In this document: one piece after another, positions 19,761 to 53,814 of the stretch
Position numbering within the stretch: position 1 is the stretch's first letter
Layout of the letters: each line of letters starts with the position of its first letter
Origin: Isoetes taiwanensis
Taxonomy: Eukaryota; Streptophyta; Lycopodiopsida; Isoetales; Isoetaceae
Length of the DNA stretch: 64,000 nt
Direction: 5' to 3'
Assembly: GCA_021234155.1 (NCBI GenBank)
Contig: JAJEKV010000040.1
Span: forward strand, 12,481,072 to 12,545,071
The notes under the pieces: model-generated
The model's database searches: none
Told to the model about the DNA's origin: nothing
Seen by the model: the letters and a program-made list of their open reading frames with translations, nothing else
Made by a program: the position numbers and the translations under genes

Positions 19761-19773
19761 TTCCCCCCTCCTT
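19761..19773 (-). other. Polypurine tract of element A
   Basis: In element direction the sequence is AAGGAGGGGGGAA directly before the TGTGACG start of the 3' LTR. It is the expected plus-strand primer for reverse transcription. Second copies lie at 24571-24583 (opposite direction) and 29564-29576. Confidence 0.9.
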
Positions 19774-22396: not shown

Positions 22397-23339
22397 ATTT
22401 CCGATAATATCCTGCTAGCCCCAAGAAACTTCGGACCTCTGAAACATTGCCTGGAATAGGCCAATCCCTTACTGCTTCTATTTTTGCTGGATCCGTAGCA
22501 ATTCCCTCTGCTGAAATGATATGCCCCAAATAATCAACCTTGGGGGTGGCAAACTTGCACTTAGAGAACTTGGCAAAGAGTTGGTGACGTCTTAACTTTT
22601 GTAGGGCCAATCGAAGATGTTGCTCATGCTCCTCCAAAGTTTTACTATAGATGAGAACGTCGTCGAAGAAAATAACAACAAAATCATCCAAGTATTGGCG
22701 GAAGACGTCATTCATCAAGCGCATGAAAGCTGCAGGAGCATTGGTTAATCCAAAAGGCATAACGGTAAACTCATAATGCCCATATCTAGTGCGAAACACA
22801 GACTTATGGATGTCCTCCTCCTTTATCCTTATCTGATGGTATCCAGAGCGTAAATCAATCTTTGAGAAATATTTGGCCCCTTGCAACTGGTCCATTAAAT
22901 CATCTGCCCTAGGCAAAGCGTAGCGATTCTTGATGGTATGCTTATTGAGCTGCCTATAATCAATACACATCCTCAATGAGCCATCCTTTTTCTTAACAAA
23001 AAGGATAGGAGCGCCAAAAGGCGAAACACTAGGCCGAATGAACCCTAGGTTTAATAACTCCTGAAGTTGCTTCTTAAGCTCTGCCAACTCTGGAGGGCTC
23101 ATGCGGTACGGGGCCTTGCTGGTAGGCTTAGTACCTGGCTCTAAAGCTATCTCACATTCTACCCCTCTAAAAGGAGGAAGCTTCTGGATCTGATCTGGAA
23201 AAAGATCATCAAATTCTCGGAGAAGCTTAGCAATTCCTTGTGGCAGGGTGTCGATTACTTGCTTCTGATTAGCATCTGACTCAATGGAGGCAAGTCCGAT
23301 AACGCAGAGGAGCTTTTCCTTGCGTATAGCTTTATCTAA
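22359..23339 (-). CDS. Element A reverse transcriptase
   Basis: The ATG-led frame 23102-22359 holds most of RT; the same frame is open upstream to 23342. Motifs in order: [21 protein letters not shown] (read as [11 protein letters not shown] then [10 protein letters not shown]), [12 protein letters not shown] with catalytic D83, [12 protein letters not shown], and the catalytic FFDDVLIYS (D147, D148) with F in place of the more common Y. The connection domain [16 protein letters not shown] follows, then the frame is lost. A TAG codon at 23342-23340 separates RT from the protease frame; a CAG to TAG change would explain it. Confidence 0.95.
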
Positions 23340-24284
23340 CTATCTGCTGGACATAGACTGCAGGATAGGGTTGAATGGTTCACCTTTTATAGTTACACGG
23401 GCTCCATTAGCGGCGTTGAAGGTAACTTCCCGTTTCTCGCAGTCTATGTTGGCCTTTACAGATGCCAAGAATTCCATGCCAACAATTAGGTCGTATTTGC
23501 CAATATCCATCAGCTCGGCACCCATAACAACTGGTGCACCTGGCAACTGCATCTTAAGATTGATGCGACGTCCATGAGTATGTCTGACCTTACCACTGGC
23601 TAACGTGACAGGTCTTGGTCGGGACCTCAAGGTTTCAAGCTGCAAGACCTGGGCCATTCTAGGAGAAGCAAAATTATGTGTACTACCCGTATCCATCAAA
23701 ATTATGAAAGGCTTACTGTCTACTTGGCCTATGGTGGAAATAACAGAAGGCTGACTTTCAGCATTGCCGGTTTCTATGGCTGCAAGGATATGAGACGCAC
23801 CGTGAATATACTCGGGAGCGTCCTCCTCGGCAGGTAGTGTCGATTCAAGATCGTCCCAATCAAGGTCAGCCATAGCCAGCTGGGCAGTTTGCGTGACATA
23901 AGGACAATTCTGCATGAAGTGCCCGGGCCGCATACACCTGTAGCATGCCTTATCTCGGCGGAGCTGTTCTCGGGCCTCTTTAGGAATAGACTGTAAGAGG
24001 TTCCGAACTTCCTTACCGACATTGTTCTGCTTATCGGGCGTACTGAAGGTGACTTTCTTTTCCTGGCGGCCATAAGAGTTCTGTTGAGAGGGCCCCGGAC
24101 TTGGCGAGCGGGGTTTGTAAGGTGTGGATGGGCGTGGCTGCGAGTAGGGAGCAGGACGCGGATAATGGTTCCTTGGTGCGTCCTCCTCGAGATTCAATGC
24201 CTTAGCCTCAGCTTCTGCAACTGATTTCGGGTCTATGGCCTTAACCATTCGTTTAATGGATGGGGCCAACCCTTCAATATACTG
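23340..24284 (-). CDS. Element A gag 3' half and aspartic protease
   Basis: The frame from about 24284 to 23340 encodes the end of the capsid domain (IEGLAPSIKRMVKAID), a Pro/Ser-rich linker, one CCHC zinc knuckle (CYRCMRPGHFMQNC) and a retropepsin with the active site LMDTGSTHNF and a second conserved LIVGMEFL. The long open frame actually begins at 24449, but its first 50 or so codons are not gag: they are the inverted copy of the internal 3' end of the element. The gag half before this break lies at 30057-30873. Confidence 0.9.
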   Translation of the reverse strand, partial: QYIEGLAPSIKRMVKAIDPKSVAEAEAKALNLEEDAPRNHYPRPAPYSQPRPSTPYKPRSPSPGPSQQNSYGRQEKKVTFSTPDKQNNVGKEVRNLLQSIPKEAREQLRRDKACYRCMRPGHFMQNCPYVTQTAQLAMADLDWDDLESTLPAEEDAPEYIHGASHILAAIETGNAESQPSVISTIGQVDSKPFIILMDTGSTHNFASPRMAQVLQLETLRSRPRPVTLASGKVRHTHGRRINLKMQLPGAPVVMGAELMDIGKYDLIVGMEFLASVKANIDCEKREVTFNAANGARVTIKGEPFNPILQSMSSR

Positions 24285-24570
24285 ATATATTGACATGTGC
24301 AGGCCAGTGAGCAGTTCGTGACCTGCCCATGTATAGAGGGTTGCTGATGACCCGACTTTTTCGGATCCGTTTTGTTTACATGTGTGATTTTCGTCGCTAA
24401 GTTTGTAAAATGCACTGTGGTGCTTGCACTTTGATATTTTCAACTTCAATGTATTACTGTCTGAAATAATGAGTTATCTCCCTTTCTTGAGTATATTCTT
24501 TCCTGATCTAGTTTCTTCAAGTAATTGTCTCTGATTAACTAACCCCAATGCTGAGGACAACATTGTTTTT

Positions 24571-26191
24571 AAGGAGGGGAGAATGTGACGTTCCACGTAT
24601 TTATACGGTATACGTAACGTATTTATATGGTATACGTATAAATATACCGACACGTCACCCACTAAAGGTACGCCACCATGGGGTATTGTAACCTAGGGGG
24701 TTGACCTAAAAAGGGATTTAATTGATAATAACCTATAATCTAGGCATTAATATTAAATGGGTTAATTAGATTAATTAATGCTTTGGTAAGGCGCCACCTG
24801 GCCTAAATTGATTGGCCAGCATGGGGACTTCCAAATTGGGCTGTCAACCTGATCCCTATCCCTAATTGACTCCCAAAATTCGTCCAAAAGGAGCAGGAGC
24901 TGAGCACCACCATACCAAGCACTTTTACCTGTGTAGCTGAAGCTGAATACCAAGACCCAGGAGATGGAAGCACCCAATGGTAACGGGTCCAGCCAGAACT
25001 CAGGTGGGTGGCTAGTATAGTTTGTGAATTCTAGGGTAGCGCCCCTGTTGGGCACTGGTTGTGATTGTTTCTCTGTTCTCTCTATGTTACTTGTAGGAAC
25101 TAACCCTTGATTGTAAAGGTGAGTTCTCTTTATTTCTGATTCTGATCTTGCTCTTAAAGGATGGATTGATAGTTCTTTGCACAGTAATACTCTTGGAATG
25201 GGGGGATTACGGGGGGTAGAGACCTCTGAGCCCATGTATTGTAGTATGCTTCTAGATAGAGCCCTGTATTATCCCACTAGTTGCGGCCTGTGTACAAGAG
25301 ACCACCGGGTCGTAGATGCTATGGCCTGGCTTAGCACCAGAGAAGGGACACAGTGGTGAAGTGGGGGTGTGGTCTTGCACGAACATAAAAGGCTCCTGAG
25401 ACTCCTACAGTGGGCTAGGCCTGATAGCCGGTCACGTAGAGGGCCGGGTATGGGTCTGACACTCCCTGGGTGTAGAGGTGTGATCCGTATGGAGCATCTT
25501 GCACTTTGAGTAGATTTAGGGTGAGTAAGTCGGGTACGGATGCGGGGGTCGCTGATGCGGCACGTATTCTCTAGCTCACCCATGGAACCCTGTGATCCTG
25601 GAAGGGGACGCCTCCCCGACCTGCCTCATCGGACGGGGCTTCATGAACCCTGTAGTAGGCTCGCAGGGTGATACCTTGAGTCTGCGTGTCCGGAAGGCTA
25701 TAGTGATCCCATAGCATGATTCGACTTATCTGCAAAGTGTGCACAGGAGGGGCGGATGGAGTGGACAACCCTAGCCGATGTTCTATGCCAGCCAACGCCA
25801 GGTTATACCTCTGTCTGCTGATCTCTTGAGACCGAGCCGTCAGTCTATCCTCACAGGAGTCTAAACCGGGGTAGAACCTGGGGTTTGGGGTGTTTCCTTA
25901 GGGTTAGATGCATATTCTTTGCCGTTGGTATTTGGATGGATGTTCCACCCTTCGTGGTGGATATTTATATATATTTGTGCTGTGTGCTAACATGTATTTA
26001 CGCTTCCGCGACGTAGGAGTCCCACTGAAGGCGTGGGCCGAATGACACCTCCGTGTCCTTCACTCGGGCATCTTTCCATAGATGGCCCGGGATAGACGGA
26101 GGGCCCTGCTCGTGGCGATACGGTCGCCATGGGAGGGAAAAGTCCCCGTATGTATACGGCCGGGGGTCGTATATATTCAGGGAGCGTCACA
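24571..26191 (+). repeat. Inverted LTR copy with polypurine tract
   Basis: AAGGAGGGGAGAA (24571-24583) is followed by a full 1608-bp LTR, TGTGACG at 24584 to CGTCACA at 26191. It is directly followed by TCAAC and family-B sequence, exactly as at the outer end of element A, so the copy includes target-site and flank. Confidence 0.9.
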
Positions 26192-26463
26192 TCAACAATG
26201 GATGGCTAGATCCTCTACCTCCACGCCAACTCCATGCACTTAGACAGCCAAACATTGCTACTGAAGTTGAGCTCTCAAAGGAAGTATCTTCTCGGGTCCT
26301 GCACCTCTTGACGTAGCTAGTGTAGGGAAACACGTTCCATTGGAGTTATAGGAGGAACTTGCAAAAATCAAGATTCCTCTTAGTTTGCCCACGATCTTCA
26401 ACTTTGTCCTGCTCTTAGGGAACAATTGCCTTTTCCCATTGTTCTTGTTGGCATGATGGCCAC
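26192..26463 (+). other. Captured family-B flank inside element A
   Basis: 272 bp that is the reverse complement of 17886-18157. It starts with the target site TCAAC and continues CAATGG into family-B protease-region sequence. It ends at GGCCAC, where it joins an LTR at a GCCACCATGG word, suggesting joining at a short shared sequence. Confidence 0.85.
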
Positions 26464-27955
26464 CATGGGGTATTGTAACCTAGGGGGTTGACCTAAAAAG
26501 GGATTTAATTAGCTAAATCATTAAAGATAATAACCTATAATCTAGGCATTAATATTAAATGGGTTAATTAGATTAATTAATGCTTTGGTAAGGCGCCACC
26601 TGGCCTAAATCGATTGGCCAGCATGGGGACTTCCAAATTGGGCTGTCAACCTGATCCCTATCCCTAATTGACTCCCAAAATTCGTCCAAAAGGAGCAGGA
26701 GCTGAGCGCCACCATACCAAGCACTTTTACCTGTGTAGCTGAAGCTGAACACCAAGACCCAGGAGATGGAAGCACCCAATGGTAACGGGTCCAGCCAGAA
26801 CTCAGGTGGGTGGCTAGTATAGTTTGTGAATTCTAGGGTAGCGCCCCTGTTGGGCACTGGTTGTGATTGTTTCTCTGTTCTCTCTATGTTACTTGTAGGA
26901 ACTAACCCTTGATTGTAAAGGTGAGTTCTCTTTATTTCTGATTCTGATCTTGCTCTTAAAGGATGGATTGATAGTTCTTTGCACAGTAATACTCTTGGAA
27001 TGGGGGGATTACGGGGGGTAGAGACCTCTGAGCCCATGTATTGTAGTATGCTTCTAGATAGAGCCCTGTATTATCCCACTAGTTGCGGCCTGTGTACAAG
27101 AGACCACCGGGTCGTAGATGCTATGGCCTGGCTTAGCACCAGAGAAGGGACACAGTGGTGAAGTGGGGGTGTGGTCTTGCACGAACATAAAAGGCTCCTG
27201 AGACTCCTACAGTGGGCTAGGCCTGATAGCCGGTCACGTAGAGGGCCGGTTATGGGTTTGACACTCCCTGGGTGTAGAGGTGTGATCCGTATGGAGCATC
27301 TTGCACTTTGAGTAGATTTAGGGTGAGTAAGTCGGGTATGAATGCGGGGGTTTGATGCGGCCGCGTATTCTCTAGCTCACCCATGGAACCTGTGATCACG
27401 GAAGGGGCCCCGGAGGCCTGCCTCATCGGACGGGGCTTCATGAACCTGTAGTAGGCTTCTTGGGGTGATACCTTGGAGTCTGCGTGTCGGGAAGGCTATA
27501 GTGATCCCATAGCATGATTCGACTTATCTGCAAAGTGTGCACGGGGAGGGGCGGATGGGTGGACAACCCTAGCCGATGTTCTATGCCATAGCGCCGGAGT
27601 TATACCTCTGTCTGGCGATCTCTTGAGGCCAGAGCCGTCGAGTCTATCCTCACGAGGGAGTCTCTAGGGGTAGAACACGGGGTTTGGGGTGTTTCCTTAG
27701 GGTTAGATGCATATTCTTTTTTGCCGTTGGTATTTGGATGGATGTTCCACCCCGTGGTGGATATTTATATATATTTGTCTTTGTGTGCTAACATGTATTT
27801 CACGCTTCGCGACGTAGGAGTCCGGGCGTGGGCGAATGACACCTCCGTGTCCTTCACTCGGGCATCTTTCCATAGATGGCGGGATAGGCGGAGACCCTGC
27901 TTCGTGGCGATCACGATTCGCCATGGGAGGAAGTCCCCGTATGTATCTGCCACGG
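26464..27955 (+). repeat. Truncated LTR copy, left arm of the head-to-head palindrome
   Basis: Begins inside the LTR at CCACCATGGGG, about 90 bp after the usual start, and runs almost to the LTR end. From about 27340 on it differs from the other copies by many one- to five-base gains and losses, concentrated toward the palindrome centre. Confidence 0.8.
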
Positions 27956-27961
27956 GTGTCG

Positions 27962-29653
27962 TGGCGCTCCACGAATATATCGACCCCGGCGTATACATGC
28001 GGGACTTTCCCCCATGGCCCATGGCCGCCGAAGGGGCCTTCATCGAGCCATCTATGGAAAGATGCCCGAAGTGAAGGACACCTGGAGGTGTCATTCGCCC
28101 ACGCCGCTGGGACTCCTACGCCGCGAAGCGTAAATACATGTTAGCACACAAAGACAAATATATATAAATATCCACCACGTAAGGGTGGAACATCCATCCA
28201 AATACCAACGGCAAAGAATATGCATCTAACCCTAAGGAAACACCCCAAAACCCCGTGTTCTACCCCGGCTTAGACTCCCCGTGAGGATAGATCGACGGCT
28301 CGGTCTCTCAAGAGATCAGCAGATTTAGGTATAACCGGCGCTATCGGCATAGAACATCGGGCTAGGGTTGTCCACTCCATCCCCTCCCGCGGCACACTTT
28401 GCAGATGGGTCGAAGTCACGCCATGGCTTCGCTTATAGCCTTCCGGGAGACGCAGTGCTCGAGGTATCACCTCGGCCGAAGCCTACCTGTGGTTCATGAC
28501 GCCCGGCCCGATGAGGTGTCGTGGAAGCGCCCCTTCCGTGATCACAGCTGTAAGGGTTCCATGGGTGAGCTAGAGAATACGTGCCGCATCGTAACACCCC
28601 CCGCATTCATACCCAACTTACTCACCCTAAATCTACTCAAAGTGCAAGATGCTCCATATGGATCACACCTCTACACCTGTGGGAGTGTCGGACCCATACC
28701 CGCCCCCACGGACCGGGCCATCGTGCCTAGCTCCACCGTAGGAGTCTCGTGAGACTTTTATGTTCGCGGCAAGACCCCACCCCCACTTCACCACTGTGTC
28801 CCTTCTCCGGGTGCTAAGCCGTGCCATAGCATCTACAACCCTATGGTCTCTTGTACACAGTGCGCTAACTAGTGGGATAAATATGTGGCTCTATCTAGGA
28901 GCATACTATAATACATGGGCTCAGAGGTTCTACCCCCGTAATCCCCCATTCCAAGAGTATTACTGTGCAAAGAACTATCAATCCATCCTTTAAGAGCAAG
29001 ATCAGAATCAGAAATAAAGAGAACTCACCTTTACAATCAAGGGTTAGTTCCTACAAGTAACATAGAGAGAACAGAGAAACAATCACAACCAGTGCCCAAC
29101 AGGGGCGCTACCCTAGAATTCACAAACTATACTAGCCACCCACCTGAGTTCTGGCTGGACCCGTTACCATTGGGTGCTTCCATCTCCTGGGTCTTGGTGT
29201 TCAGCTTCAGCTACACAGGTAAAAGTGTTTGGTATGGTGGTCTTTTGGACGAATTTTGGGAGTCAATTAGGGATAGGGATCAGGTTGACAGCCCAATTTG
29301 GAAGTCCCCATGCTGGCCAATCGATTTAGGCCAGGTGGCACCTTACCAAAGCATTAATTAATCTAATTAACCCATTTAATATTAATGCCTAGATTATAGG
29401 TTATTATCTTTAATGATTTAGCTAATTAAATTCCTTTTTAGGTCAACCCCCTAGGTTACAATACCCCATGGTGGCGTACCTTTAGTGGGTGACGTGTCGG
29501 TATATTTATACGTATACCGTATAAATACGTTACATATACCGTATAAATACGTGGAACGTCACATTCTCCCCTCCTTAAAAACAATGCTGTCCTCAGCATT
29601 GGGGTTAGTTAATCAGAGACAGTTACTTGAAGAAACTAGATCAGGAAAGAATA
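27962..29653 (-). repeat. Full LTR copy with polypurine tract, right arm of the palindrome
   Basis: Starts near GCTCCACGAATATATCGACC and ends CGTCACA at 29563. The polypurine tract complement follows (29564-29576), then 77 bp of element interior, then an abrupt jump to another LTR piece at CATACGGGGACTTT. Small insertions are frequent between 27960 and 28800. Confidence 0.8.
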
Positions 29654-30056
29654 CATACGGGGACTTTCCCCTCCCATGGCGACCGTATCGCCACGAGCAG
29701 GGCCCTCCGTCTATCCCGGGCCATCTATGGAAAGATGCCCGAGTGAAGGACACGGAGGTGTCATTCGGCCCACGCCTTCAGTGGGACTCCTACGTCGCGG
29801 AAACGTAAATACATGTTAGCACACAGCACAAATATATATAAATATCCACCACGAAGGGTGGAACATCCATCCAAATACCAACGGCAAAGAATATGCATCT
29901 AACCCTAAGGAAACACCCCAAACCCCAGGTTCTACCCCGGTTTAGACTCCTGTGAGGATAGACTGACGGCTCGGTCTCAAGAGATCAGCAGACAGAGGTA
30001 TAACCTGGCGTTGACTGGCATAGAACATCGGCTAGGGTTGTCCACTCCATCCGCCC

Positions 30057-30873
30057 TCTTTTCATTCATCCCTGGTACGTATAGCCTCAGGCGCATGAAT
30101 TCATCAGTATAGGCCTGAACTGACATACCCTTCTGCTCCAGCCTGTAGAAGGTTTGGATTTGTTGGCATTTGTGCGCACGAGGCACATAATGCGACTTAA
30201 AAGCCTTGGCAAACTTTTTGAACTTGCACCTGCTCCTATCCAGGTGCTTGGCTCTGGCATAGCCCTTCCACCAAATACGGGCAACTCCTGTAAGGTTTGT
30301 GGTGGCAACCTTCCCTGTATCCTTTTCTGTCATTCCATAGGATTTCCCAAACTCCTTCATCTCGTCGAGCCAGGACTCTTCATTCAGCCCATCTCTAGAT
30401 TTACCATCAAATTGGGCCAATTTCCTATTTTTCCATATACTGGTTATGGCTGTATCAACTGTTTTACGGTACTCCTTGTCCCGGCGATGTGCATGGTCAC
30501 CGGATGACACCGACGACTCAAAAGACTCAGAAGAAGCTGACTGGGAGGAGGTGGCACTGTCCCTAGAGGGGCCTCGATGACGTTTGGAACGGTGCCTCCT
30601 CAGTACTGGTGCAGGACTGGATTCAGGTACAGAAGGCTGCTGTGGTGGGGGACTTGGTGGTAACGGAGGTAACTCCGGTCCATCCTCCTGAACATGCTGC
30701 GGTGGATTGACATTGAGTACATAAGTCTGTAACTCAACTAGTTGCCTCTTCATCAACATGAGTTCCTGCTCAAGGGTTAACCTACTGGCATTTGAGGGTG
30801 TCTGCCAGGCGGCGTTGCGTGCACCGTCTATATTGAGCATAAAAAGGTATAAGCAGAGTTTCAACAACATCAA
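30057..30873 (-). CDS. Element A gag 5' half (capsid domain)
   Basis: The frame starts at 30873 by ATG, but a good 3' splice site (polypyrimidine then ATATAG) places a possible spliced start near 30827. Contents: a short heptad segment (LMLMKRQLVELQTYVLN), a Pro-rich stretch, a Ser-rich stretch, and a retrotransposon gag capsid domain with AQFDGKSRDG, SWLDEMKEF, ARIWWKGYARAK, AFKSHYVP and QAYTDEFMRLRLYVPGMNEK. The gag match ends at about 30056, where LTR sequence begins. The continuation is at 24284. The protein would form the particle shell. Confidence 0.9.
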
Positions 30874-31094: not shown

Positions 31095-31549
31095 CTAGGG
31101 GTTCGCGAAAGGGTACATGATGGAATAGCGAACGCTTTCACGTACATCTCTGACGAGCTTGTAACGTGCCCAGGCCTGGACGATAACATGCTGGTAGTCC
31201 CATGTGGGGCTAATAATAAGGAGATTGAAAAGCCTCCTTAATGCATGCCATAAGTGGTCGTTGGCATCCTCGAAAGCTTCGTGCCTGGACATACTCCAAT
31301 AGTCCCATGTGCGGCGAAGGGTCTGTTTCAGGTCGTCAAAGGCCCGTTCTCTGAGGATGTTAACTACCTCCATACCCTTATTGTCTGGATCATAAGGCTC
31401 TTCCGGCTCTTCGGGTTCATCCATCTCATAGTCACCCTCTCGTTCCGGGTACTCCCCATATCTTTGGCCGTAATCTTGTTCGGGAGGCCCTTGATCGTCC
31501 CTTCTTATCTGGTCGGTGATCCTCTCTTCGTACTCCTCGAATGTCTCTT
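31095..31549 (-). CDS. Element A accessory frame 3: acidic tail plus H4-like fold candidate
   Basis: ATG-led frame 31424-31095 (109 codons); the same frame is open up to a strong 3' splice site (pyrimidine-rich, TCTTGCAG) whose exon begins at 31549, giving an extra acidic N-terminal stretch. Hand comparison with core histones gives an ordered match to H4: LRR then SRHEAFED...HL...L (H4 alpha-2 has the pattern IYEET..VL..FL), then a Y..H turn, then RDV...VR and a terminal YPF close to the H4 ending YGF. Identity is low and the basic H4 tail is absent. It is the accessory frame nearest gag. No other family suggested itself; the H4 call is inference. Confidence 0.5.
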
Positions 31550-31796
31550 CTGCAAGACGATAGGAGTGAATATATATATATATTGAACAATTCTTCTATA
31601 CTCCAACTTTAAGGAAGAGAATTAAACATTGAAGGGTAAAGACAATTCAATGGTTTTTCAACAGTACAAGAAAATACAAGGAAATATCCTGAATATATGT
31701 AAGAAAATAGTACATAGGTTATGTGGTGGCCCAGCAAAGGTAATGGCAATCAAAATTACTTAAAACTAGATACAATTGTCTGCTTAAAAACTAAAA
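31550..31796 (-). other. Intron-like spacer between accessory frames 2 and 3
   Basis: AT-rich, no open frame, ends in the element direction with a TA-rich tract, CTCCTATCGTCTTGCAG. This is what a plant intron 3' end looks like. The matching donor could be the leader site at 34976 or one nearer. Confidence 0.45.
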
Positions 31797-33206
31797 CTAA
31801 GAGGTCGACCCTTCAACATCTTGTGCTTGGGTGTCAAACTCAGGCTCTGGTCGATGCTGCAGGAGTAGCACACTAGGACTAACTGATGAGGCAGCTGATG
31901 AAACTATCTCTGGAGGAACATTTGTAGCTAATGGCGCGGCAACCAGCAGACTCATGTTTATCCAAGAACCGATCTCATGGTCAAACACTGCAATGGCTAG
32001 ATCACGATTCACCAGGATGACCTGCTCAAGGTTAGGAGCTAACTTCTTATGGCCGGCTGTGGTCGAAAGTGCTCTGAGTGCCCAAATAGCTGCCTCTGCG
32101 TCAGGTGCAATGGCTTTAGCAAAGAAGAGAACCTGTCTGCTTGTAAAAGCCGACAAGAAGAACCGGGTAATATGGCATTTCAACCCCTGAACCATCGGAT
32201 GGGTTGAAGAGGCCAACTCAGACTCCAAGTTCTGGGGCAGCTCCTCCTCCATGGCAAAATCCTTCTCCTCCTGAGCATACTGGCTCTCATCACATAGATC
32301 CTCCATGGTTGGGTCGTCCTCGATCTTGACGACGACATCGTTGATGTTGGGCACATACGGCCCCGTAGCATGAAAAACCGATTCAGGAATTGAGGATGGA
32401 GTGCCCTGAATCATTAACTGCCGTAAGGATAGCAGTGTGCTGATAGGCTCAACATCAAGAGGCTGATAGTTGAGCAGTTGGTGGATCTCTGGCACATAGA
32501 CGGGTCGAGAATAATCAATGAAGTCATGCTGACCCTGACAATACTCGGCCAGCTCATAGAGAAGGTGAGCCGTCTTTTGCTTGCCCTTATTGGCGATATG
32601 CTGATACGCCCATTGAATGTCGCTCAGCAGCAAATAATCTTGATCCCCAACCTTGATGGTAGAAAGCGAGCTTAAGCCGACAAGAGCTTGGCCCTTACTA
32701 CGGGGTAAAGGCTTCTCTTTGGCCAATTCCTTCCATCTTACAAAGTCGGCGTAGCTTATCTGCTCATCCTCCTCAGGATCTGGCGGAAGTGGGAACTTGG
32801 CTTGCTCTAAAGCCGTGTCGGTACCGTCAACATACCTATCCATAATCAGAGCAAGGGCAAACTGGGCCTCAAAGTACAGGCCGTTAGAGCCACAATCAAT
32901 AATGGGGGCGTGCTTAGCACGTCTGAGAATGCCCTTACGAATATCATAACTGTGGCGATCATCCCCAAACATGTTCTCCAAGATATCCTTATGAAGATAG
33001 GGTTGAGGCGGCTCCCCGAAGAACTCTGCCTGGGGCAGGATTTCCTCATCATAAAACTCTAGGAAGGTCTGATAATCAGGGTGTGCGCGCATGTTGTCGA
33101 TGAGGTCGACTGTACACTGCAACATGGGATCCAAGAGAGGGTAGGGAACCTGGGGATCCCATTGCTCGCCTCCCATGTACCATGCTAGGCGCCCAGCGTA
33201 ATCCAT
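31797..33206 (-). CDS. Element A accessory frame 2: possible H2B-H2A-like doublet protein
   Basis: The longest frame starts at 33281, but a 3' splice site (CCGTCTGCAG) lies just before the ATG at 33206 (residue 26, MDYAGRLAWY), the more likely start; numbering below is from 33281. Residues 26-200 are unlike anything I recognise. Residues 214-285 follow the H2B order: an aromatic-rich first helix (YLLLSDIQWAYQHI), LLYELAEYC for the long helix, then YSRPVYVPEIHQLL where H2B has a Pro and a conserved EI. After an acidic linker (318-350), residues 366-460 follow H2A: GL...I.R, AP..EAAI, TTAG, VNRDLAIAVFDHEI (H2A: RHLQLAIRNDEEL) and VAAPLATNVPP over the docking segment. Identity is low; helix order and lengths fit. 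Cys and acidic linker features are unusual for histones. Confidence 0.55.
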   Translation of the reverse strand: MDYAGRLAWYMGGEQWDPQVPYPLLDPMLQCTVDLIDNMRAHPDYQTFLEFYDEEILPQAEFFGEPPQPYLHKDILENMFGDDRHSYDIRKGILRRAKHAPIIDCGSNGLYFEAQFALALIMDRYVDGTDTALEQAKFPLPPDPEEDEQISYADFVRWKELAKEKPLPRSKGQALVGLSSLSTIKVGDQDYLLLSDIQWAYQHIANKGKQKTAHLLYELAEYCQGQHDFIDYSRPVYVPEIHQLLNYQPLDVEPISTLLSLRQLMIQGTPSSIPESVFHATGPYVPNINDVVVKIEDDPTMEDLCDESQYAQEEKDFAMEEELPQNLESELASSTHPMVQGLKCHITRFFLSAFTSRQVLFFAKAIAPDAEAAIWALRALSTTAGHKKLAPNLEQVILVNRDLAIAVFDHEIGSWINMSLLVAAPLATNVPPEIVSSAASSVSPSVLLLQHRPEPEFDTQAQDVEGSTS

Positions 33207-33453: not shown

Positions 33454-34743
33454 TCATGGTCGTTCCCCACGGATCCGGCGTGCTAACTGAAGGTCCTTGG
33501 TCATGATCGTCACTCGCTTGGCATGGATTGCACATAGGTTTGCATCGCCAAAGAGGGCCACCAAATAGGCCTCGGCTGCCTCCTGGAGTGCTAGAATGGC
33601 ATGAGTCTGAAACCGGAGATCCGTTTTAAATTCCTGAGCAATCTCTCGGACCAGCCACTGGAAAGGAAGTTTCCGTAGCAAAAACTCGGTGGATTTCTGG
33701 TACTTCCTTATTTCCCTAAGTGCCACGGTGCCAGACTTGTAACGATGCCTCCTCTTAGGCTGGGGTGGAGCTCCAGGAATAGTTTTCCCTGCTGTTCTTG
33801 GATACCGGGCCTTTCGGATGATCTCATCTCGTCGGTTGTCCTCTGCAGCCTTTGCGACACTACCCCGAGCCTTAAGCTGATCTTTGTACTGAGCACCCGA
33901 TTTACGGGGCGTCTTCTTCAGTTTTCGGCGAGGAACGCGAACTTCCGGAGGTGGCTGATCTTTCCGGTGCCTTTCTTCCTCTTCTTTTCTCAACCGCTCC
34001 TTTACTGCTTCTGTTGCTTCTCTCGCCCTCTGCTCTGCTTCATCCTGCATTCTCTTCAGGGCTTGCTCCTGTTCTACTTGCTGTTGATGGACAATATCCT
34101 CCCGAAGCTTAGCAGCCTCCTCTGTCAATTGCGTTGCCCTCTGAGACTGTGCCAGGAGTGCGGCTTGCTCCTCTGCTCGCTTTTCCCTGGCTATCCGGAT
34201 ATCCGTTCTTCGTTTAAGTTCCAGGAAGTAGCGTGGAGGGTTAGCCTGCATGTCCCGCTCGACAGCCCGCTGGAATTGGTCCGTGAAGAATGGGGGTGTT
34301 CCAGCTTCCCAGATAATACGGTTAGTCTCCTCTTCATATGAAAAAGTTGGGAGGGTGTATGCCCCCCCATCAAATAGGCACATCCCATTTCCAAGGTAAC
34401 GATACCCTGAAGCTGGGTCATCAGATGCAAGCCACTGTAGGTCCGCTTCCTGGGCCATTTGCAGGCTATTTTGGGCCTGTGTTTGTAGGGCCTCGGCTTC
34501 AGCTTGTTCGTCCCCTCCTGGCGGAAAGAACCGCGTATACTTCTGGACACCATCTTCCTGTTCAACTACGATGCAGGTTTCCCGGATGGCGTTGAGCTTG
34601 AATACAAAGCGCTCGTTGTAGCAAAAGAGCGGGAATGGTATTCTAATTCCTTCATAGAAGCGTTTGACAAAGTACTCCAGTAGCTCCTCTGTTTTGGCCT
34701 CTTCTTCAGGCGATGGGTTTGGGCGTGGCAGTAATTGGGCCAT
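33454..34743 (-). CDS. Element A accessory frame 1: protein with a C-terminal histone H3 core
   Basis: Uninterrupted 429-codon frame, the first after the leader. Residues 1-190 are unknown in family. Residues about 195-275 form a long charged Gln/Glu/Arg-rich coiled coil. Residues 276-331 are a basic linker with [13 protein letters not shown]. Residues 332-429 are histone H3 from before the alpha-N helix to the last residue, with no gaps: [70 protein letters not shown] stop. By my own alignment to canonical plant H3 recalled from memory about 80 of 98 positions agree. The canonical N-terminal tail is absent, replaced by the coiled-coil fusion. Arg69 of H3 is Trp here, while Lys56 and Lys79 equivalents remain. 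It would be nuclear or particle-associated; role unknown. Confidence 0.9.
33457..33750 (-). other. Histone H3 core domain inside accessory frame 1
   Basis: Codons 332-429. Covers alpha-N, alpha-1, alpha-2 and alpha-3 of H3, ending at the natural H3 terminus. No intron and no frame defect are seen. The gap-free match and high identity say that this segment was captured from a cellular H3 and kept under constraint, or captured recently. Confidence 0.95.
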
Positions 34744-35405: not shown

Positions 35406-35417
35406 GCTCTGATACCA
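35406..35417 (-). other. Primer binding site for initiator Met tRNA
   Basis: In element direction TGGTATCAGAGC follows the end of the 5' LTR after one base. This is the standard plant complement of the 3' end of initiator Met tRNA, used to prime minus-strand DNA synthesis. Confidence 0.95.
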
Positions 35418-35418
35418 C

Positions 35419-37427
35419 TGTGACGCTCCACGAATATATCGACCCTACCGTATACATACGGGACTTTCCCTCCCATGGCGACCGTGATCGCCACGAAGCG
35501 TGGCCCTCCTCCGTCTATCCCGGGCCATCTATGGAAAGATGCCCGAGTGAAGAACACGGAGGTGTCATTCGGCCCACGCCTTCAGTGGGACTCCTACGTC
35601 GCGGAAGCGTAAATACATGTTAGCACACAACACAAATATATATAAATATCCACCACGAAGGGTGGAACATCCATCCAAATACCAACGGCAAAGAATATAC
35701 ATCTAACCCTAAGGAAACACCCCAAACCCCAGGTTCTACCCCGGTTTAGACTCCTGTGAGGATAGACTGACGGCTCGGTCTCAAGAGATCAGCGATGCAG
35801 AGGTATAACTTTGGCGTTGGCTGGCATAGAACATCGGCTAGGGTTGTCCACTCCATCCGCCCCTCCCATGTGCACACTTTGCGGATGGGTCGAAGTCACG
35901 CTATGGCTTCGCTATAGCCCCAGGAGACGCAGGGCTCGAGGTATCACCCCGGCTGAGCCTACTCGGGGTTCATGGCGCCCGGTCCGATGAGGCAGGTCAG
36001 GGAAGCGTCCCCTTCCAGGATCACAGTGGTTCCATGGGTGAGCTAGAGAATACGTGCCGCATCAGCGACCCCCGCATTCATACCCAACTTACTCACCCTA
36101 AATCTACTCAAAGTGCAAGATGCTCCATACGGATCACACCTCTACACCCTGGGAGTGTCGGACCCATACCCGCCCCCACGTGACCGACTATCGAGGCCTA
36201 GCCTTTGTAGGAGTCTCGGGAGCCTTTTATGTTAGGTGCAAGACCCCACCCCCACTTCACCCTTGTGTCCCTTCTGCGGTGCTAAGCGGGGCCATAGCAT
36301 CTGACCGGTGGTCTCTTGTACACGAGCTCGAGGTATCACCTGTGAGCCTACTCCGGGGTTCATGGCCCGGTCCGATGAGGCAGGTCGGGGAAGCATCCCC
36401 TTCCGGGATCACGGTGGTTCCATGGGTGAGCTAGAGAATACGTGCGCATCGGCGACCCCGCATTCATGCCGACTTACTCACCCTAAATCTACTCAAAGTG
36501 CAAGCTGCTCCATACGGATCACACCTCTACACCCAGGGAGTGTCAGACCCATACCCGGCCCTCTACGTGACCGGCTATCAGGCCTAGCCCACTGTAGGAG
36601 TCTCAGGAGCCTTTTATGTTCGTGCAAGACCCCACCCCCACTTCACCACTGTGTCCCTTCTCTGGTGCTAAGCCAGGCCATAGCATCTACGACCCGGTGG
36701 TCTCTTGTACACAGGCCGCAACTAGTGGGATAATACAGGGCTCTATCTAGGAGCATACTACAATACATGGGCTCAGAGGTCTCTACCCCCCGTAATCCCC
36801 CCATTCCAAGAGTATTACTGTGCAAAGAACTATCAATCCATCCTTTAAGAGCAAGATCAGAATCAGAAATAAAGAGAACTCACCTTTACAATCAAGGGTT
36901 AGTTCCTACAAGTAACATAGAGAGAACAGAGAAACAATCACAACCAGTGCCCAACAGGGGCGCTACCCTAGAATTCACAAACTATACTAGCCACCCACCT
37001 GAGTTCTGGCTGGACCCGTTACCATTGGGTGCTTCCATCTCCTGGGTCTTGGTGTTCAGCTTCAGCTACACAGGTAAAAGTGCTTGGTATGGTGGCGCTC
37101 AGCTCCTGCTCCTTTTGGACGAATTTTGGGAGTCAATTAGGGATAGGGATCAGGTTGACAGCCCAATTTGGAAGTCCCCACGCTGGCCAATCGATTTAGG
37201 CCAGGTGGCGCCTTACCAAAGCATTAATTAATCTAATTAACCCATTTAATATTAATGCCTAGATTATAGGTTATTATCTTTAATGCTAATTAAATCCCTT
37301 TTTAGGTCAACCCCCTAGGTTACAATACCCCATGGTGGCGTACCTTTAGTGGGTGACGTGTCGGTATATTTATACGTATACCGTATAAATACGTTGCATA
37401 TACCGTATAAATACGTGGAACGTCACA
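35419..37427 (-). repeat. 5' LTR of element A with an internal 392-bp tandem duplication
   Basis: 2009 bp, TGTGACG to CGTCACA. The excess over the roughly 1.6-kb sister LTRs is a tandem duplication with CTCGAGGTATCACC at 35935 and again at 36327. Away from this duplication it is the cleanest LTR copy. Confidence 0.9.
35935..36718. repeat. 392-bp tandem duplication inside the 5' LTR
   Basis: Two units start CTCGAGGTATCACC at 35935 and 36327. Both contain GTTCCATGGGTGAGCTAGAG and GTGCAAG-TGCTCCATACGG. The two differ by several bases. Confidence 0.9.
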
Positions 37428-37432
37428 GTTGA
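37428..37432. other. Target-site duplication GTTGA, right copy
   Basis: Matches 18153-18157. Family-B sequence resumes with GCATGGTGGTGGTATG, complementary to the B2 copy near 57355. Confidence 0.9.
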
Positions 37433-39341
37433 GCATGGTGGTGGTATGAACATTAACTAGCATGTGACCTTCAGCTGCTTGCATGAGGCGAAGGATACTC
37501 TGGCAAACTTTAGACATGACATGAAGCATCATGCATTGTAGTTTGGGCTGAAAATGGACCGTTGTGGTGGTAGATTACTGAGGGGCAGTAGTAACCGCAA
37601 AGGCGAGTTATGTGTCCTGAGGCGTTAGATTATAGGGATGAATACCGTGGACTTGGCGTGATATCAAGCAAACCCAATTTGACTGTTAGACTGGAGGATT
37701 CAAAGCTTGATAGATCTCTTCCTGAGCCTGTTGATCTAAAGCAACTTGAGGGGGAGCTTGTGTAGGTTATTGTTATTGCTGAAGAGTGCGTGATGGTTTT
37801 TTTAGCGTAGATCTTGGGCGTTTTTGTCGTTAGCCATCCAATTTTAGCAGGATCAAAAGGTAGCCTTGAAGACTGTCCACGTTGTGGATGAGTTTGTTGA
37901 GGCTCTGAGGGTGACCGAAAGTGCGTAGGCGTGGTTTGGAAGGCATGGGGTTAGCACACGTGCATTCTTTTGTGGCATGATTGCACATATTGCAACGTTT
38001 GCAATGAGGAGACCCATTGACATAATTGCACGCCTTGGCGAGATGGCCCAAGCACCAGATTTCACTGTGTTGCAGTGGATGAGACTGTTGTGGGGTCAAG
38101 AGTTCTGAGGAACTAGCGCAGGTGGCATAAAAGAGAGGTAAGACAAGGGAACTCCCCGGAAAGACACATTGACCAAATGAATCACCAATTCTATAGCCTA
38201 AATCTGATCCAAAGATTTGGGACACAAATATTCTATCATAAGATGAATAATGGAGGCAGACCTTGCAAAAACCATACTAAAATCTGGCTCTGCATGGGAT
38301 ACTCTTTGAATTTGCCTACAAGAATAAGCAAGCGGTCAGCAAAGTCTCTTGAAGAATCCGTGGTCTATTGTTGGAGCTCATTGAGTTGTTCAAAAGCTGT
38401 TGATCGTCATCAGAAGAACTGTAGTGGGCCAGGAATACTGCTTTCATGTCATGCCAACTTTGTTTCCAATGGCTCCATGAGCCATTGGTGCGGTGCATCA
38501 CGCAACATGGTGGAGAAAATATGAAACTTAATTGATGGTTAGGAGTGACCATTGAGGACAGCAAAAGGCTCAAATTCTTCCATATGTACCTGAGCACTCT
38601 GATCTACGGTTGGCTTGCCCTTAGCATTGCCAAAAATAGGATAAGGAGTTTCAGATTGAGTCCCTGAGCAGAGACTGAAGGCAGAATAGGTTGGGTAGAA
38701 ACATATTGAGTTTGAGACATTGGGACTTGATTAGGCAGTGGGCCATGAGAAAAAGAGGGTCCTCCCATAGCTGCTACGGCGGCACTACTGTGAAGCCTGG
38801 GGTCTTGCAATGGCAGAAATCTTGTTGTTTGGAGGTGGAGCAACAGGGCATTCTTCAGGACCAAGAGTAAGATCACCAATATTATAAACATTAACAGGTG
38901 GTTGAAAAGATGGTGAGGATGGGAACTCATTGACATAAGTGGGGCCAAAAGAAACCTGAGTAGCCCATGCTATGTTGCAGCGAGGATAGTTGTGAAGGAA
39001 GTGGGGTCGGCATTGGCAGAATGTAAACATAAGTACTTTCCAGAGTTCGAAAATATGGTGGAGTCTAATGAACATGTGTGTGGTGATGCAATTGTGGCTA
39101 CGGACAATTTCGACAATGCGTGGGAGATTCTGGATGCAAAGAAACCCGAGGTGTGGGGGGTGTCAAATGAGCATGCGAACATGGGCAACCACCCTCAATA
39201 TTATAGTCTCCATCATAAGAATCACGAGCAGCTTTCCAGCGTTGTTGTCTCGCCAATCGAGCAGCAGTTTGGCTGAAAAGCTCTTCTTGAGTAAAAGGCT
39301 TGGGATGAAAGGAAGAAACTAATCCCAGGCATAGGCACCAG
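37433..39341 (-). mobile_element. Family-B element copy B1: gag part, degenerate
   Basis: On the minus strand it parallels the gag of copy B2. Visible parts: the N-terminal segment just after the leader (FTQEELFSQTAARLARQQR), a segment with FGPTYVNEFPSSPSFQ and NVYNIGD, a capsid-like part with HWKQSWHDMKAVFLAHY, and a Cys-rich knuckle region (CKRCNMCNHATKECTCANP). The reading is broken by several stops and shifts. It continues, beyond element A, in the pol part at 16490-18157. Confidence 0.8.
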
Positions 39342-40600
39342 TGTTTGGGGTCTGGATTTGGGATAGCCCGCAAGACAGTCCTCTATGAGGACCCTTGGAT
39401 CAAGCAAACAAATCCTAAGCAATAGAGTGTCACATGGGATTTGCTGAAAAAGAGAAACTAAGAACTAAGAACAGACAATTAAGAGAAAGAAATAAGGAAA
39501 AATGTATGCCAAGTTAAGAATCACTTGAAATGATCAACGAGGATACATGAACTCTACAGAACATGGAGATGAGACAACTAGAAAAATACTAAGACTTGTC
39601 TAAGCTTCCAAGTCTAAGCATTTGATACAATGGCCTTGGGCCCAAATTAGCAAAAATATTGCCTTCTCAGATCTCAGTTATCTAGTCCCAAAATCTTTGC
39701 TGACAGCACTGGGGATTCTGCCATAATATCTGAAGTCATGATTGTCGTGATTCGTGCTACACGAGACTTGCGTTCCAAGGCCCACATTTTGTGGCCATGG
39801 GTTCTTCACGTCGTGGATTCCCATGGCCTCTTTCTTATTTTTCGTTTGCGTGGTCTTGGCTCCTGATGTGGACGCAGGGCCTTTGCCCTTGGGCTCTTTT
39901 ATATACCTTAGAGATAGTCATGTGCCTTTGGGCACGGGATTCACAGGAGCCTGAGAAGTTTAAGGCTCATTGGATAATGATTTTTGTTGAAGGATATACC
40001 CTTTTAATGTGTTGGTTATCACTAGAGATGCCAGTACTTATCATACAACATCGTCGAGACAGTCGATGGTGGTTGAGCAACAAGTGCAGGAGCCAGAGTG
40101 GGCACTGAAAGTTGCGTGATAGCAAGGACTGAAGGATGAGGAGCATCAAGAGGCTTGGATGAAAGTTGAGCAATGGGGAAGGGCGTGCAATGGAAGCAGT
40201 TGGACTAGGAGTCTGAGAAGAAGAAGTGGAAGCAGAGACACCGCCAAAGTGCTTAGAGGATGCTCTGATATGAAAGACTTAAAAGGCAGGTTGAGAGAAG
40301 GGAACCAACAACTAATCTCGCTTGCATTGAGGAGTTCAAGCTTGTAACACGAGAAAAAAGAACCATTTTTTATCAACTCCTCTGTTGGCAAATTTCTGTC
40401 CATAAAAAGAGCAACACAATCTGGGGCCCTCTTGTGATAGTATGGGCTATATAGAGGCCCGAAGAATTGGCTATGGATATTAGAATTTTTAGACAAGCAA
40501 GTCAAGGAGTAAGTCGAGAATTTAGACTAATAGGGCAGTTTAATCTTTAAAGGCATGTCAATGGAGAAACTTGTATAGTAATTCTGGAAAATAACTGTTG
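39342..40600 (-). repeat. 5' LTR of family-B copy B1
   Basis: Collinear with 52546-53798. In element direction it starts near CAACAGTTATTTTCCAG and ends CCAAACA(C), followed by a primer-site-like TGGTGCCTATGCCTGGGATT at 39340-39321. This resembles the tRNA-Asp type used by the Athila/Tat branch, with mismatches. Confidence 0.75.
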
Positions 40601-41703
40601 GCCCGCCCAATGTGTCAATCCAGATACCAAATTAGTGATATTTGCCTCATTATTAAATATTATGAGGAAGAAATCATTCCCAATGGAATTAATTGACTCA
40701 AAATGACGTAATTAATATCTATGAAAAAGAGCATCGGTAACTTGAATAATGATGATATCGAGGTTCTAGTTGTCTGCTTATTCCTGGAAAGAATCTTCAT
40801 GATGTCAGACTTGTTGCCTTATTGGACGAAGGCAAGTGCATTAGATACTCTCGTGCTTCTGGTTTGGTGGGAGATCATTTCTAATCCATTCGCTAAACGT
40901 GGTTAACAAAGCGTCGGGCAGAATTGCCACTCCAAGGTAGTCAAGAGGGACGCCACTTAGGCCCTTGAACGATTGTCCACTACTATCTTGAGTCCCAATT
41001 GATCTCTATTGCTAGTACCCCCACCAACACAAGTACTTCCATCGAAATTAGAACAAGAGAACTGCCCCGTGGATGAGGCATTTGAGTCTGGATTTGCTCA
41101 CCACCATCATGGTTAATGTCTAAACAAGCATTCGGAGTTGGCGTATAGCTTGAAGCCTTGCAAAAAGGAGCATCTCCTGCATTATCCTTAATCCTTCCGC
41201 AGACGTAGATCCAACATCCATGGATTGGCTTGGATGTACTGCCATACTTGCAGCCAAGGCAAGTTCTGACCGAGTGAATATAGGTGCAATAAGCATTTCC
41301 TGTCGTGCCTTGGAAAGAGGTTTTCCCAATGGGTAGAAGATTTTGAGATATTATAGGATTGGAGGAATTCATAGTGGTACTTTTTTTAGGGTTGCATGTT
41401 GTCTTAGCTACATACTTTCTAAATACGAGGGCAACATTAGACGCAACAAAGGAGTGCTACAGCACCACCGATCTTGTTACCTTAGGGGAAATTTGGAAGA
41501 CAAGAAGAATCGCTCCTTTCTAGTGTAAACGCTACTTTTTGGGATCAAAGTTCACAGCACCAGCTTCTACGGACACATGCCTTCACTTTGGGAGCTCAGA
41601 TAGGCCCTAGGCTGCCCTCTAGAATCCACATATACCATCACTGCCAACCCTGTCGCTTACACATGTGGTCGTGATTTACGGAGCTTCACCAACATCACTT
41701 CCT
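40601..41703. other. Intergenic stretch
   Basis: No supported gene. A minus-strand open frame at 41372-40983 has eight or more Cys (CTYIHSVRTCLGCKYG) but no recognised family, splice support or codon signal, so it is left uncalled. Confidence 0.3.
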
Positions 41704-44220: not shown

Positions 44221-46110
44221 GTCAAATGGCACAACATCCGCAGATGTCAACACTTATGTCGGGTAATTGTGGAAGCTCCTAACCAATGTCTGCACCCCTC
44301 ATGGAGTCTCTATGGATCCCAAAAAGGCCAGTACCTTTTTGGAATGGCAAACACCTTCGTCCGTCTAAAATATTCAGTGTTTTCTTGGATTGCCAACTTC
44401 TATCGGCATTTTCTTCGGGATTATTCGGAGATAGCTCTTCCTTTGAACGCTTCACGGCAAAGGCTGTGTCATTTGAATGGAGTGTAGAAGCAAAAATTGC
44501 TTTCATTATTCTGAAGCAAGCCTTACGTTGGTACCACATCTTGCTCATGCAGATCCTTCACCCATATATTGTCGAAATAGATGCTTCTGATTTTCTCTTG
44601 ACGGTATCCTGTCACAGGCAGGAGGGGATGACCATGAGCTACATCTGATCGCCTATCACTCGCAAAAGTTCCAGGCTGCCAAAATCAACTATCTAAGTTT
44701 TGACAAGGAGTTATTAGCTATAGTTGATTCTTTCGAGAGGTGGAGATATTTTCTGGAAGGATCTCCTCATAAGATTACAGATCATCAAAATCTGGAATAT
44801 TTTCAGTCTGCTCGAGTGCTCAACCATTACCAGGCTCGGTGGCATACTCAAGTATTATCCCACATTAATTTTTTGATTAAGTACCGTCCTGAACCTCTCC
44901 AAGGGAAGCCTGATGCTTTGTCTCGATGCTCCTACCTTGAGCCCAAACCATGTGGTCTCCCGTTTGATTAGCAATCACATGTTATTATAGGGCATGATTG
45001 GTTCCAACTTATAGTTACCACTTTGTTTGAGAGGCCTCATGATACAACTTTGTTGGAGTCTGTTCGGGCATCTCTGCCCTCCGATCCATTGGCTGAAGAT
45101 ATATTTTTACATCTTGGTTCAACATCATCTTCTCGGCAACTGCGGTCAGACTATGATCATTTTGAGATTCAAGATGGACTTCTATTCCGCGATGGGATTC
45201 TGTATGTTCCAAATGGTGCTTCCCGACTTCGGGTTCTTCAAGCTTGTCATAACTCGGCTATAGGTGGACATTTTGAAGTAGCCAAGGCTCTTGAACTTAT
45301 TAGTTGAGAGTATTAGTGGCCTGGGCTTGGTCGCTCTCTCGAAATTTTTGTTCGATCTTGCAATATCTGCTATCGAGCAAAGGTCTTGAGACATCTTCCT
45401 CGTGGTCTTCTTCAGCCACTGCCTATTCCAGATGGTCCTTGGAAGAGTATTTTTGTGGACTTTATTTCGGAGCTGCCATTCTCTCGGGGACATGATGCCA
45501 TCATGGTCATTGTTGATCGTTTCTCTAAGATGGCTCATTTTATTTTCTGCAACATCACTATCACTAATGAAGGAACATCTGATATTTTCCTTCGTGAAGT
45601 AGCCAGACTTCATGGATTACCAGACAATATTGTCAGTGATCGTGAACCCCAGTTCATCGTAGGTTTTTGGAAGCAACTTTTGGAGTCATTGCATATTGAA
45701 CGCTCACTGACATCCAGTCATCATCCAGAAAGTAATGAGCAAGTGGAACACACTAATAAGACTCTGGAACAATATTTGAGGTGCTTCATCAGTTACCAAT
45801 AGGATGATTAGATCGATTATCTTCTACTAGCTGAGTTTGCCTATAATAACTCAATACATGCTTCTACTGGCCATACTCCATTCTTTTTTAATCTGGCCAG
45901 CATCCTCGTTGGTCCTTTGATGTTGTTGGCGGCGATCTATCAATCCTAGTGCCGAGTCCCAACTTGAAAAACTCCATGCACTTCAATTAGATCTTTAGCA
46001 CCATCTTCTCTGGGCACAAGAGCACTATCGGCATTATGCCGATTTACATCGGCAAGCAGCTCCTACTTTTCATGTTGGTGACCTTGTATGGCTACTAAAA
46101 TCGGGCTTGC
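44221..46110 (+). mobile_element. Chromovirus pol fragment (RT end, RNase H, integrase), Tcn1-like
   Basis: Degenerate reading in several frames: RT thumb and connection (ANFYRHFLRDYSEIALPLN), RNase H with EIDASDFLL, LIAYHSQKFQAAKINYLSFD, ITDHQNLEYF, LNHYQARW and KPDALSRCSY, then an integrase with HNSAIGGH, FVDFISELPFSRGHDAI, IVSDREPQF and an altered ESNEQVEHTNK where QTDGQVERTN is usual. Then FHVGDLVWLL. The TDHQNLEYF/LNxxQARW/GKPDALSR pattern is what I associate with Tcn1-like chromoviruses of fungi and seed-free plants. No LTRs were identified around it. Confidence 0.8.
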
Positions 46111-53798: not shown

Positions 53799-53799
53799 T

Positions 53800-53814
53800 T
53801 GGCACCAATGCCGG
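53800..53814 (+). other. Primer binding site of B2, tRNA-Asp-like
   Basis: TGGCACCAATGCCGG with GTGATT following resembles the tRNA-Asp complement TGGCGCCGTTGCCGG used by Athila/Tat elements, with three mismatches. Placement one base after the LTR end supports it. Confidence 0.6.

Follow-up and report, generated by a model that had tools for sequence, protein, structure and literature searches.

A histone H3 fusion gene carried by a chromovirus clade in the lycophyte Isoetes taiwanensis

The H3 fusion and the element that encloses it

The genome of the lycophyte Isoetes taiwanensis contains a long terminal repeat (LTR) retrotransposon whose first protein ends in a histone H3. In this study, a stretch of 64,000 nucleotides from contig JAJEKV010000040.1 (assembly GCA_021234155.1, positions 12,481,072 to 12,545,071), referred to here at its full length as the window, was analyzed. 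The minus strand of positions 33454-34743 was found to encode a protein of 429 amino acids (the H3 fusion), which was characterized by translation of its open reading frame (ORF), Pfam and PDB matching, searches of the plant's own genome, ratios of nonsynonymous to synonymous substitution rates (dN/dS) and AlphaFold. The frame starts with an ATG and its stop codon lies directly behind the end of H3; from stop to stop it spans 456 codons, the longest frame across 60 mononucleotide shuffles of the window being 203 codons. The protein contains the following parts: a domain at about residues 1-165; a long helix at residues 169-258; a basic linker at residues 263-330; and the histone H3 core at residues 331-428. 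Pfam family PF00125 (Histone) covered residues 324-425 (E 1.2e-39), and the closest PDB match was H3.3 over residues 310-428 (E 8.4e-50), gap-free from HRY (H39) on, so that the complete H3 fold aligned without gaps. Both matches bore out the original prediction, made from the sequence letters, that a full-length and gap-free H3 core ends at the natural H3 stop.

That prediction had described the remainder as a 330-residue N-terminal part with a long coiled coil. The helix was recovered, since AlphaFold with a single sequence returned a long and confident helix at residues 169-258. The N-terminal part is more than a coiled coil, because a homologous domain of about 165 residues, common to the family of the window copy (family A) and to a second family (family B), precedes this helix. 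A search of 5.8 billion proteins with residues 1-325 gave 6522 candidates, none at E ≤ 1e-3, and IMG/VR scans with the N-terminal part, the following frame ORF2, the ORF2 pair and the reverse transcriptase (RT) gave nothing useful. The canonical H3 tail was not recognizable, as none of 14 sequences aligned to it clearly better than their own shuffles; for the best of the 14, 162 of 2000 shuffles were equally good. Motifs resembling K-x-T-A-R-K-S were seen by eye in some copies, were not significant against shuffles, and a preserved tail was therefore rejected. The usual H3 modification sites are thus missing, the similarity to the tail being no better than chance, in line with the predicted absence of the usual modified tail. 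In five other copies (L009, L010, L012, L020 and L022), the frame runs on upstream of the H3 fusion through a KQVY segment. Four of these five have an in-frame ATG 22 codons further upstream, and the start of the window copy is perhaps not the original one.

The LTR retrotransposon that encloses the H3 fusion is about 19.3 kb long. Its 5' LTR (TG...CA, positions 35419-37427, minus strand) carries an internal tandem duplication (35934-36323 and 36326-36712), its 3' LTR occupies positions 18158-19760 on the same strand, and both were located by self-blastn with their ends read. The sequence TCAAC flanks the element as a target site duplication at 37428-37432 on the 5' side and at 18153-18157 on the 3' side. 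One base behind the 5' LTR lies the primer binding site TGGTATCAGAGC (35406-35417, minus strand), which we take to be of the initiator tRNA-Met type, and the polypurine tract AAGGAGGGGGGAA was read at 19761-19773 (minus strand).

Between the LTRs the minus-strand order is H3 fusion, ORF2, ORF3, gag, protease, RT, RNase H and integrase, and chromodomain. ORF2 (31797-33206, 469 amino acids) was taken from the ORF list and from homology searches, and ORF3 (31095-31595, 166 codons from stop to stop) from the ORF list and a comparison of longer loci. The 5' part of gag (29977-30870) matched Retrotrans_gag and Ty3_capsid in Pfam, its last 25 or so codons being derived from the LTR. The 3' part of gag, with a CCHC knuckle and the aspartic protease, lies at 23340-24473 (frame from the ORF list, Pfam match at 23340-24296). 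The RT (22362-23339, RVT_1, E 2.4e-38), the RNase H and integrase (20993-22414, Pfam H2C2 and rve) and the integrase C-terminus with an SH3-like domain and a chromodomain (20254-21039; Chromo, E 2.5e-08; PDB match to Chromo domain protein 1, E 4.1e-06) follow, all on the minus strand. Two TG..CA LTRs, a duplicated target site, the primer site, the polypurine tract, the gypsy gene order and the C-terminal chromodomain of the integrase identify the element as a chromovirus. The H3 frame lies between the primer site and gag as predicted, with two further frames, ORF2 and ORF3, intervening before gag. Its position within the LTRs and the TCAAC duplication, together with the gene order repeated in other copies, upheld the view that it is cargo of the element; a neighboring host gene was ruled out by the identical place inside LTR elements.

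The window copy is old or damaged. Its LTRs align at 88-92%, in patches, and inverted LTR pieces with flank, arranged as a palindrome (24277-30056, self-blastn), interrupt its gag near 30056. Within these, 26459-29475 is 87% identical to its own reverse complement, and 24277-26463 matches 20067-17886 in inverted orientation at 93.6%, which repeats the 3' junction together with its flank. The palindrome may represent nested insertions or, in part, an artefact of long-read fold-back in the assembly; the published assembly is Nanopore-based according to the available text of the genome paper (PMC8566536). Elsewhere in the window lie a fragment of a DUF7869 protein (50140-50952, plus strand, E 2.2e-19), remnants of other elements (integrase at 45317-45802, RNase H at 62769-63152) and, outside the element, a pair of inverted repeats of about 2.5 kb that are 83% identical (38157-40601 and 52545-55005).

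Copies, constraint and ancestry

Genome-wide match counts given here are lower bounds, and true copy numbers are larger. The H3 fusion had at least 105 matches in its own genome, from 100 to 59% identity (best 98 of 13031 candidates scored), and 17 of the family A matches listed, the window copy included, were free of stops over at least 418 residues. Twenty longer stretches (L009-L028; 16 good and four diverged copies chosen from the family A matches) were compared. Downstream of the H3 fusion and in the expected order, ORF2 or a piece of it was present in 19, ORF3 in 15, gag in 18 and RT in 15; two of the stretches (L014 and L020) end before the RT, three (L015, L024 and L025) are without it, and ORF3 was not found in L022 and L024-L027. 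When a canonical H3 was used as query (best 150 of 9031 candidates scored), 15 matches at 97-99% were cellular H3 genes of full length, and the other 135 were cores at 72-87% that aligned only from residue 3-36 onward. All five of these cores that were opened belonged to family B, which itself had at least 102 matches at 100 to 76% identity (best 102 of 11792 candidates scored). The N-domains of families A and B are homologous (29-33% identity across 170-200 residues; E values of 9e-24 to 1e-30, from a comparison within a small set). Moreover, type C, of which one open copy was read, has an N-domain of the same kind and lacks the long helix; its H3 is altered less.

A positional test was made at three RT places without a listed H3, chosen for their long open pol frames. 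In the 311 bases taken upstream of each, an H3 core was found at two of the three. Both cores belonged to another type, D, and in one of them the N side was broken; the third place was LTR sequence. Since family B and types C and D also exist, the fusion is older than the element family of the window. In addition, several copies (L018, L021, L032, L037, L039, L050 and others) have a TCA codon after ..RGER, which reads ..RGER-S-stop in the three that were read further. The H3 cores of this group are nearly identical despite differing N-terminal parts, which may reflect conversion among copies or a polishing artefact.

ORF2, the frame that follows the H3 fusion and its partner, had no Pfam match, and a search of 5.8 billion proteins returned a single relative, P0122, at 41% identity over 96%, on an ENA contig of 2953 bases. 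In the Isoetes genome the window ORF2 had at least 97 matches (best 91 of 7163 candidates scored), and P0122 matched at least 90 ORF2 places, the best of which, at 62%, lies next to a broken copy of type C. At no fewer than 29 of these 90 places, an H3 core ends 173-271 nucleotides upstream of ORF2 on the same strand, and no other arrangement within 5 kb was found when the 90 places were compared with the listed H3 cores. The ORF2 pair gave one match in the PDB (E 0.33), and structure prediction for ORF2 reached a predicted local distance difference test (pLDDT) score of 31.7. The acidic ORF3 likewise had no Pfam match and was in the same place in its 15 of the 20 longer loci.

Selection on the H3 fusion was estimated by the NG86 method from 210 pairs of 21 stop-free copies, which remained after 43 of the 64 extracted copies, the window included, had been dropped for stops or length. 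The median dN/dS was 0.11 for the whole fusion, and by part it was 0.10 for residues 1-165, 0.12 for residues 166-262, 0.26 for residues 263-330 and 0.027 for the H3 core at residues 331-428. The last ratio is if anything too high, because NG86 scores some synonymous changes of Arg, Leu and Ser codons as nonsynonymous. Mean identity to the window copy was 92% in the H3 core and 73-80% elsewhere. For the other frames, dN/dS was 0.067 for RT (six copies), 0.078 for ORF2 (eight) and 0.091 for gag (six), with too few copies for the RNase H/integrase frame. By these ratios, the H3 core is under the strongest purifying selection, and in the copies compared its constraint at least matches that on the RT. 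Furthermore, ORF2 is the predicted partner protein, kept together with the H3 fusion by purifying selection.

The 5' part of the element and its pol have had different histories. The best 123 of 33747 RT candidates were scored, and all were at least 93% identical to the window RT. A listed H3 fusion lay upstream on the same strand within 20 kb of at least 45 of the 123 and within 8 kb of at least 38, and another arrangement was seen at no fewer than three of the scored RTs. Among the 38 places with an H3 fusion within 8 kb, at least 13 carried an A module and at least 13 a B module, the RTs being 93-95% and 93-94% identical to that of the window, respectively. Since the RTs are 93-95% alike and the N-domains of A and B only 29-33%, the 5' module has been exchanged or is diversifying far faster than pol.

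The H3 cores have kept most residues of the cellular protein that were examined. Under our assumed assignment of H3 positions to these roles, the seven listed residues of the H3-H3 bundle were unchanged in seven A, B and C sequences, the D sequence being truncated and covering three of the seven. Among the 13 DNA contacts listed, the only departures were K64R in D, Y41F in two sequences and the R69W of the window copy, which carries at H3 positions 43 and 69 changes not shared by any other aligned copy. Y41, H87 and L90, which we take to be the H3.3 signature, are kept in family A, the window copy included, and position 87 is F or L in the B, C and D sequences. At the chaperone site (positions 86-90), host gene L069 reads SHAVL and the four A sequences read THAIL, THAIL, VHAIL and VHAVL. 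E77 is present in all four host H3 genes read (L069-L072) and in most family A cores.

At the protein level the element cores are 85-90% identical to the host H3s, and 86-90% to L069 over the core. At the nucleotide level identity is 67-74% with saturated synonymous sites (4 of the 15 host genes compared), which means that the capture is old and argues against a recent gene conversion from host H3. The H3 tree called for in the original prediction was built on the core of about 97 residues with L057 and one broken outgroup sequence excluded. In it, a branch with support of 90/91 (SH-aLRT/UFBoot) separates all element cores (A, B and C) from the cellular H3s; this part of the check was thereby obtained for element and cellular H3s. 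The CENH3 alternative was rejected on loop 1, which is ordinary, as in host H3, and has no insertion, CENH3 itself lying outside the tree. In addition, T107A is common to A-D, and I124L is common to A-C and also occurs in the D piece L081. The pattern fits one ancient capture of a host H3, as judged from sequence; two captures may also have taken place, because the core holds so few informative sites. A captured H3 has almost certainly been retained as a gene of the element.

Possible functions of the H3 fusion

A chromovirus clade in a lycophyte genome very probably took up a host H3 long ago, before the present families split. In the protein that the element encodes first, the captured H3 now makes up the C-terminal part, preceded by an element-specific N-domain and, in family A, by the long helix. 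The protein would be translated from the 5'-most frame, and its H3 core would pair with host H4 and enter the nucleus; such pairing and entry of the fusion into chromatin are expected by analogy. Chaperones of the replication-independent route would then incorporate the fusion into nucleosomes, and the N-domain and helix would project from chromatin where the normal modifiable tail would be. The likeliest purpose would be a special chromatin on the new complementary DNA (cDNA) and copies of the element that resists silencing based on H3K9 and H3K27, with the N-domain giving specificity. This whole chain, from H4 pairing through nucleosome deposition to an anti-silencing purpose, has in our estimate an even chance of being right.

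A wider reading is of a retroelement clade with nucleosomes of its own, in which a chromatin-building H3 would be fused to a diversifying targeting domain, private nucleosomes of each family without the usual tail would escape silencing or mark integration sites, and the 5' module of H3 and ORF2 would be exchanged while pol stays near constant. We assign it a probability of roughly 0.5. The exchange or fast change of the 5' module recalls an arms race like that of VANC, for which reason an own chromatin or an anti-silencing role is placed first, an integration tether second and packaging third. Several observations weigh against the chain from H4 pairing to anti-silencing. The N-terminal part of about 330 residues may or may not be tolerated in nucleosomes, and the AlphaFold model of the fusion from one sequence was unusable as a structure (mean pLDDT 52.5). 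The chaperone sites TFAIL, LLGVL and AFVIL of B, C and D may impair chaperone-mediated loading. Sampling only stop-free copies favors low dN/dS, which does not explain the contrast between domains, and the diversity of the 5' module would fit tethering or RNA binding equally.

A tether for integration is a tentative alternative, in which the fusion would sit in host nucleosomes anywhere and the N-domain, perhaps with ORF2, would dock the complex of integrase and cDNA, the chromodomain acting as a second reader. That the element also encodes a chromodomain and that the H3 interfaces are conserved speak for it. By inspection, cage positions one and three of the window chromodomain, as we presume these to be placed, are not aromatic, and a direct link to methyl-lysine is for this reason doubtful. 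Chromodomains of other chromoviruses target histone marks according to the available texts of two studies (PMC2864245, PMC9289625), which again favors a tether. Packaging or nuclear import is less likely. Here the H3 core with host H4 would compact the cDNA or RNA of the element in or after the particle, and the helix would serve as a Gag-like accessory. The place as first frame behind the leader, the basic linker and the long, confident helix at residues 169-258 agree with such a role, which the accessible part of a viral-histone review proposes for some viral histones. However, packaging alone needs no near-identity to cellular H3 at the H3-H3 and DNA contacts, and the fold of viral histone doublets shares 22-48% identity with eukaryotic histones, by the same part of the review (PMC9145170).

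An improbable explanation is a decoy outside nucleosomes, whose H3-like domain would dimerize or bind chaperones and so sequester host H4 or the chaperones. The altered chaperone site of B-D and the bulky N-terminal part could hinder deposition, as a decoy would allow, but a decoy would not need DNA contacts, and most of these are conserved in the examined sequences of all four types. We give almost no credence to a functionless processed pseudogene of H3, or a transduced gene piece, in one or some copies. Retrotransposons do acquire pieces of host genes, as the accessible part of a review describes (PMC7264820), and the original prediction had named an H3 pseudogene confined to this copy and absent from all sister elements as the result that would speak against it. 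What was found were at least 105 family A and at least 102 family B matches. With a core dN/dS of 0.027, saturated synonymous divergence, a fixed place before ORF2 and an H3 core at two of three predicted positions upstream of RT, a one-copy pseudogene or a functionless hitch-hiker is refuted for this clade.

Relation to known systems and meaning

In agreement with the earlier statement that no retrotransposon family with an H3 fusion had been described, no retroelement-encoded histone was found in the best-ranked open-access PMC papers, subscription papers and preprints lying outside this scope. The word "histone" is absent from the main text of a review of additional ORFs (PMC7264820), of a review of giant transposons and of the Isoetes taiwanensis genome paper (PMC8566536), and "retrotransposon" occurs zero times in the viral-histone review (PMC9145170). 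The element resembles chromoviruses of the Galadriel, Tekay and Tcn1 clades in its order of LTR, primer site, gag, protease, RT, RNase H, integrase and chromodomain and in its 5-bp duplication. In contrast, the available passages on these chromoviruses mention histones only as targets of the chromodomain and never as a gene of the element (PMC2864245, PMC6317226). Plant LTR elements with additional ORFs or captured domains (Ogre, Retand and Grande) likewise keep an extra conserved frame across subfamilies, and an orchid Gypsy element carries an m6A (N6-methyladenosine) demethylase, according to the part of that study available (PMC9289625). Unlike in these elements, the extra frame in Isoetes precedes gag and is a core histone. 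The VANC proteins of VANDAL DNA transposons are similar in their proposed element-encoded anti-silencing and arms race, as far as the accessible texts go (PMC5735166, PMC10398659), but they are sequence-specific DNA-binding proteins and not histones.

Several retrotransposon families of a single plant genome carry a core histone as one of their regular genes. Whether mobile DNA can lay down chromatin of its own can be tested directly on them, as can the behavior in nucleosomes of a variant H3 that lacks the usual tail and has an N-terminal part of 330 residues. Moreover, histone catalogues of such genomes may hold many element genes, given that 15 of the 150 scored H3 matches were full-length cellular genes.

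CENH3/CENP-A shares with the fusion an H3 fold and a non-canonical N-terminus. A longer loop 1 and CENH3-like divergence are presumably the hallmarks of CENH3; unlike it, the fusion has no loop-1 insertion and its core keeps 86-90% identity to L069. Closest in content are the single captured core histones of viruses, namely the H3s of a xenomavirus, the phycodnavirus DSLPV1 and a mimivirus-related metagenome-assembled genome, and the H4 of bracoviruses. In the accessible part of the review, these single histones are mostly 73-89% identical to eukaryotic histones in the fold, some have a lengthened tail or a changed chaperone site, and entry into host nucleosomes is considered likely for the single H3s (PMC9145170). 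They belong to DNA viruses and polydnaviruses and have extensions of 35-68 residues by the same part of that account, whereas the fusion belongs to a retroelement, has an N-terminal part of about 330 residues and exists in several families and many copies. The chromovirus clade described here, with its captured and constrained H3, suggests that these elements may make their own chromatin. To our knowledge, no earlier case joins retrotransposons that capture genes with single histones encoded by viruses, and this clade is a joining of these two known kinds.
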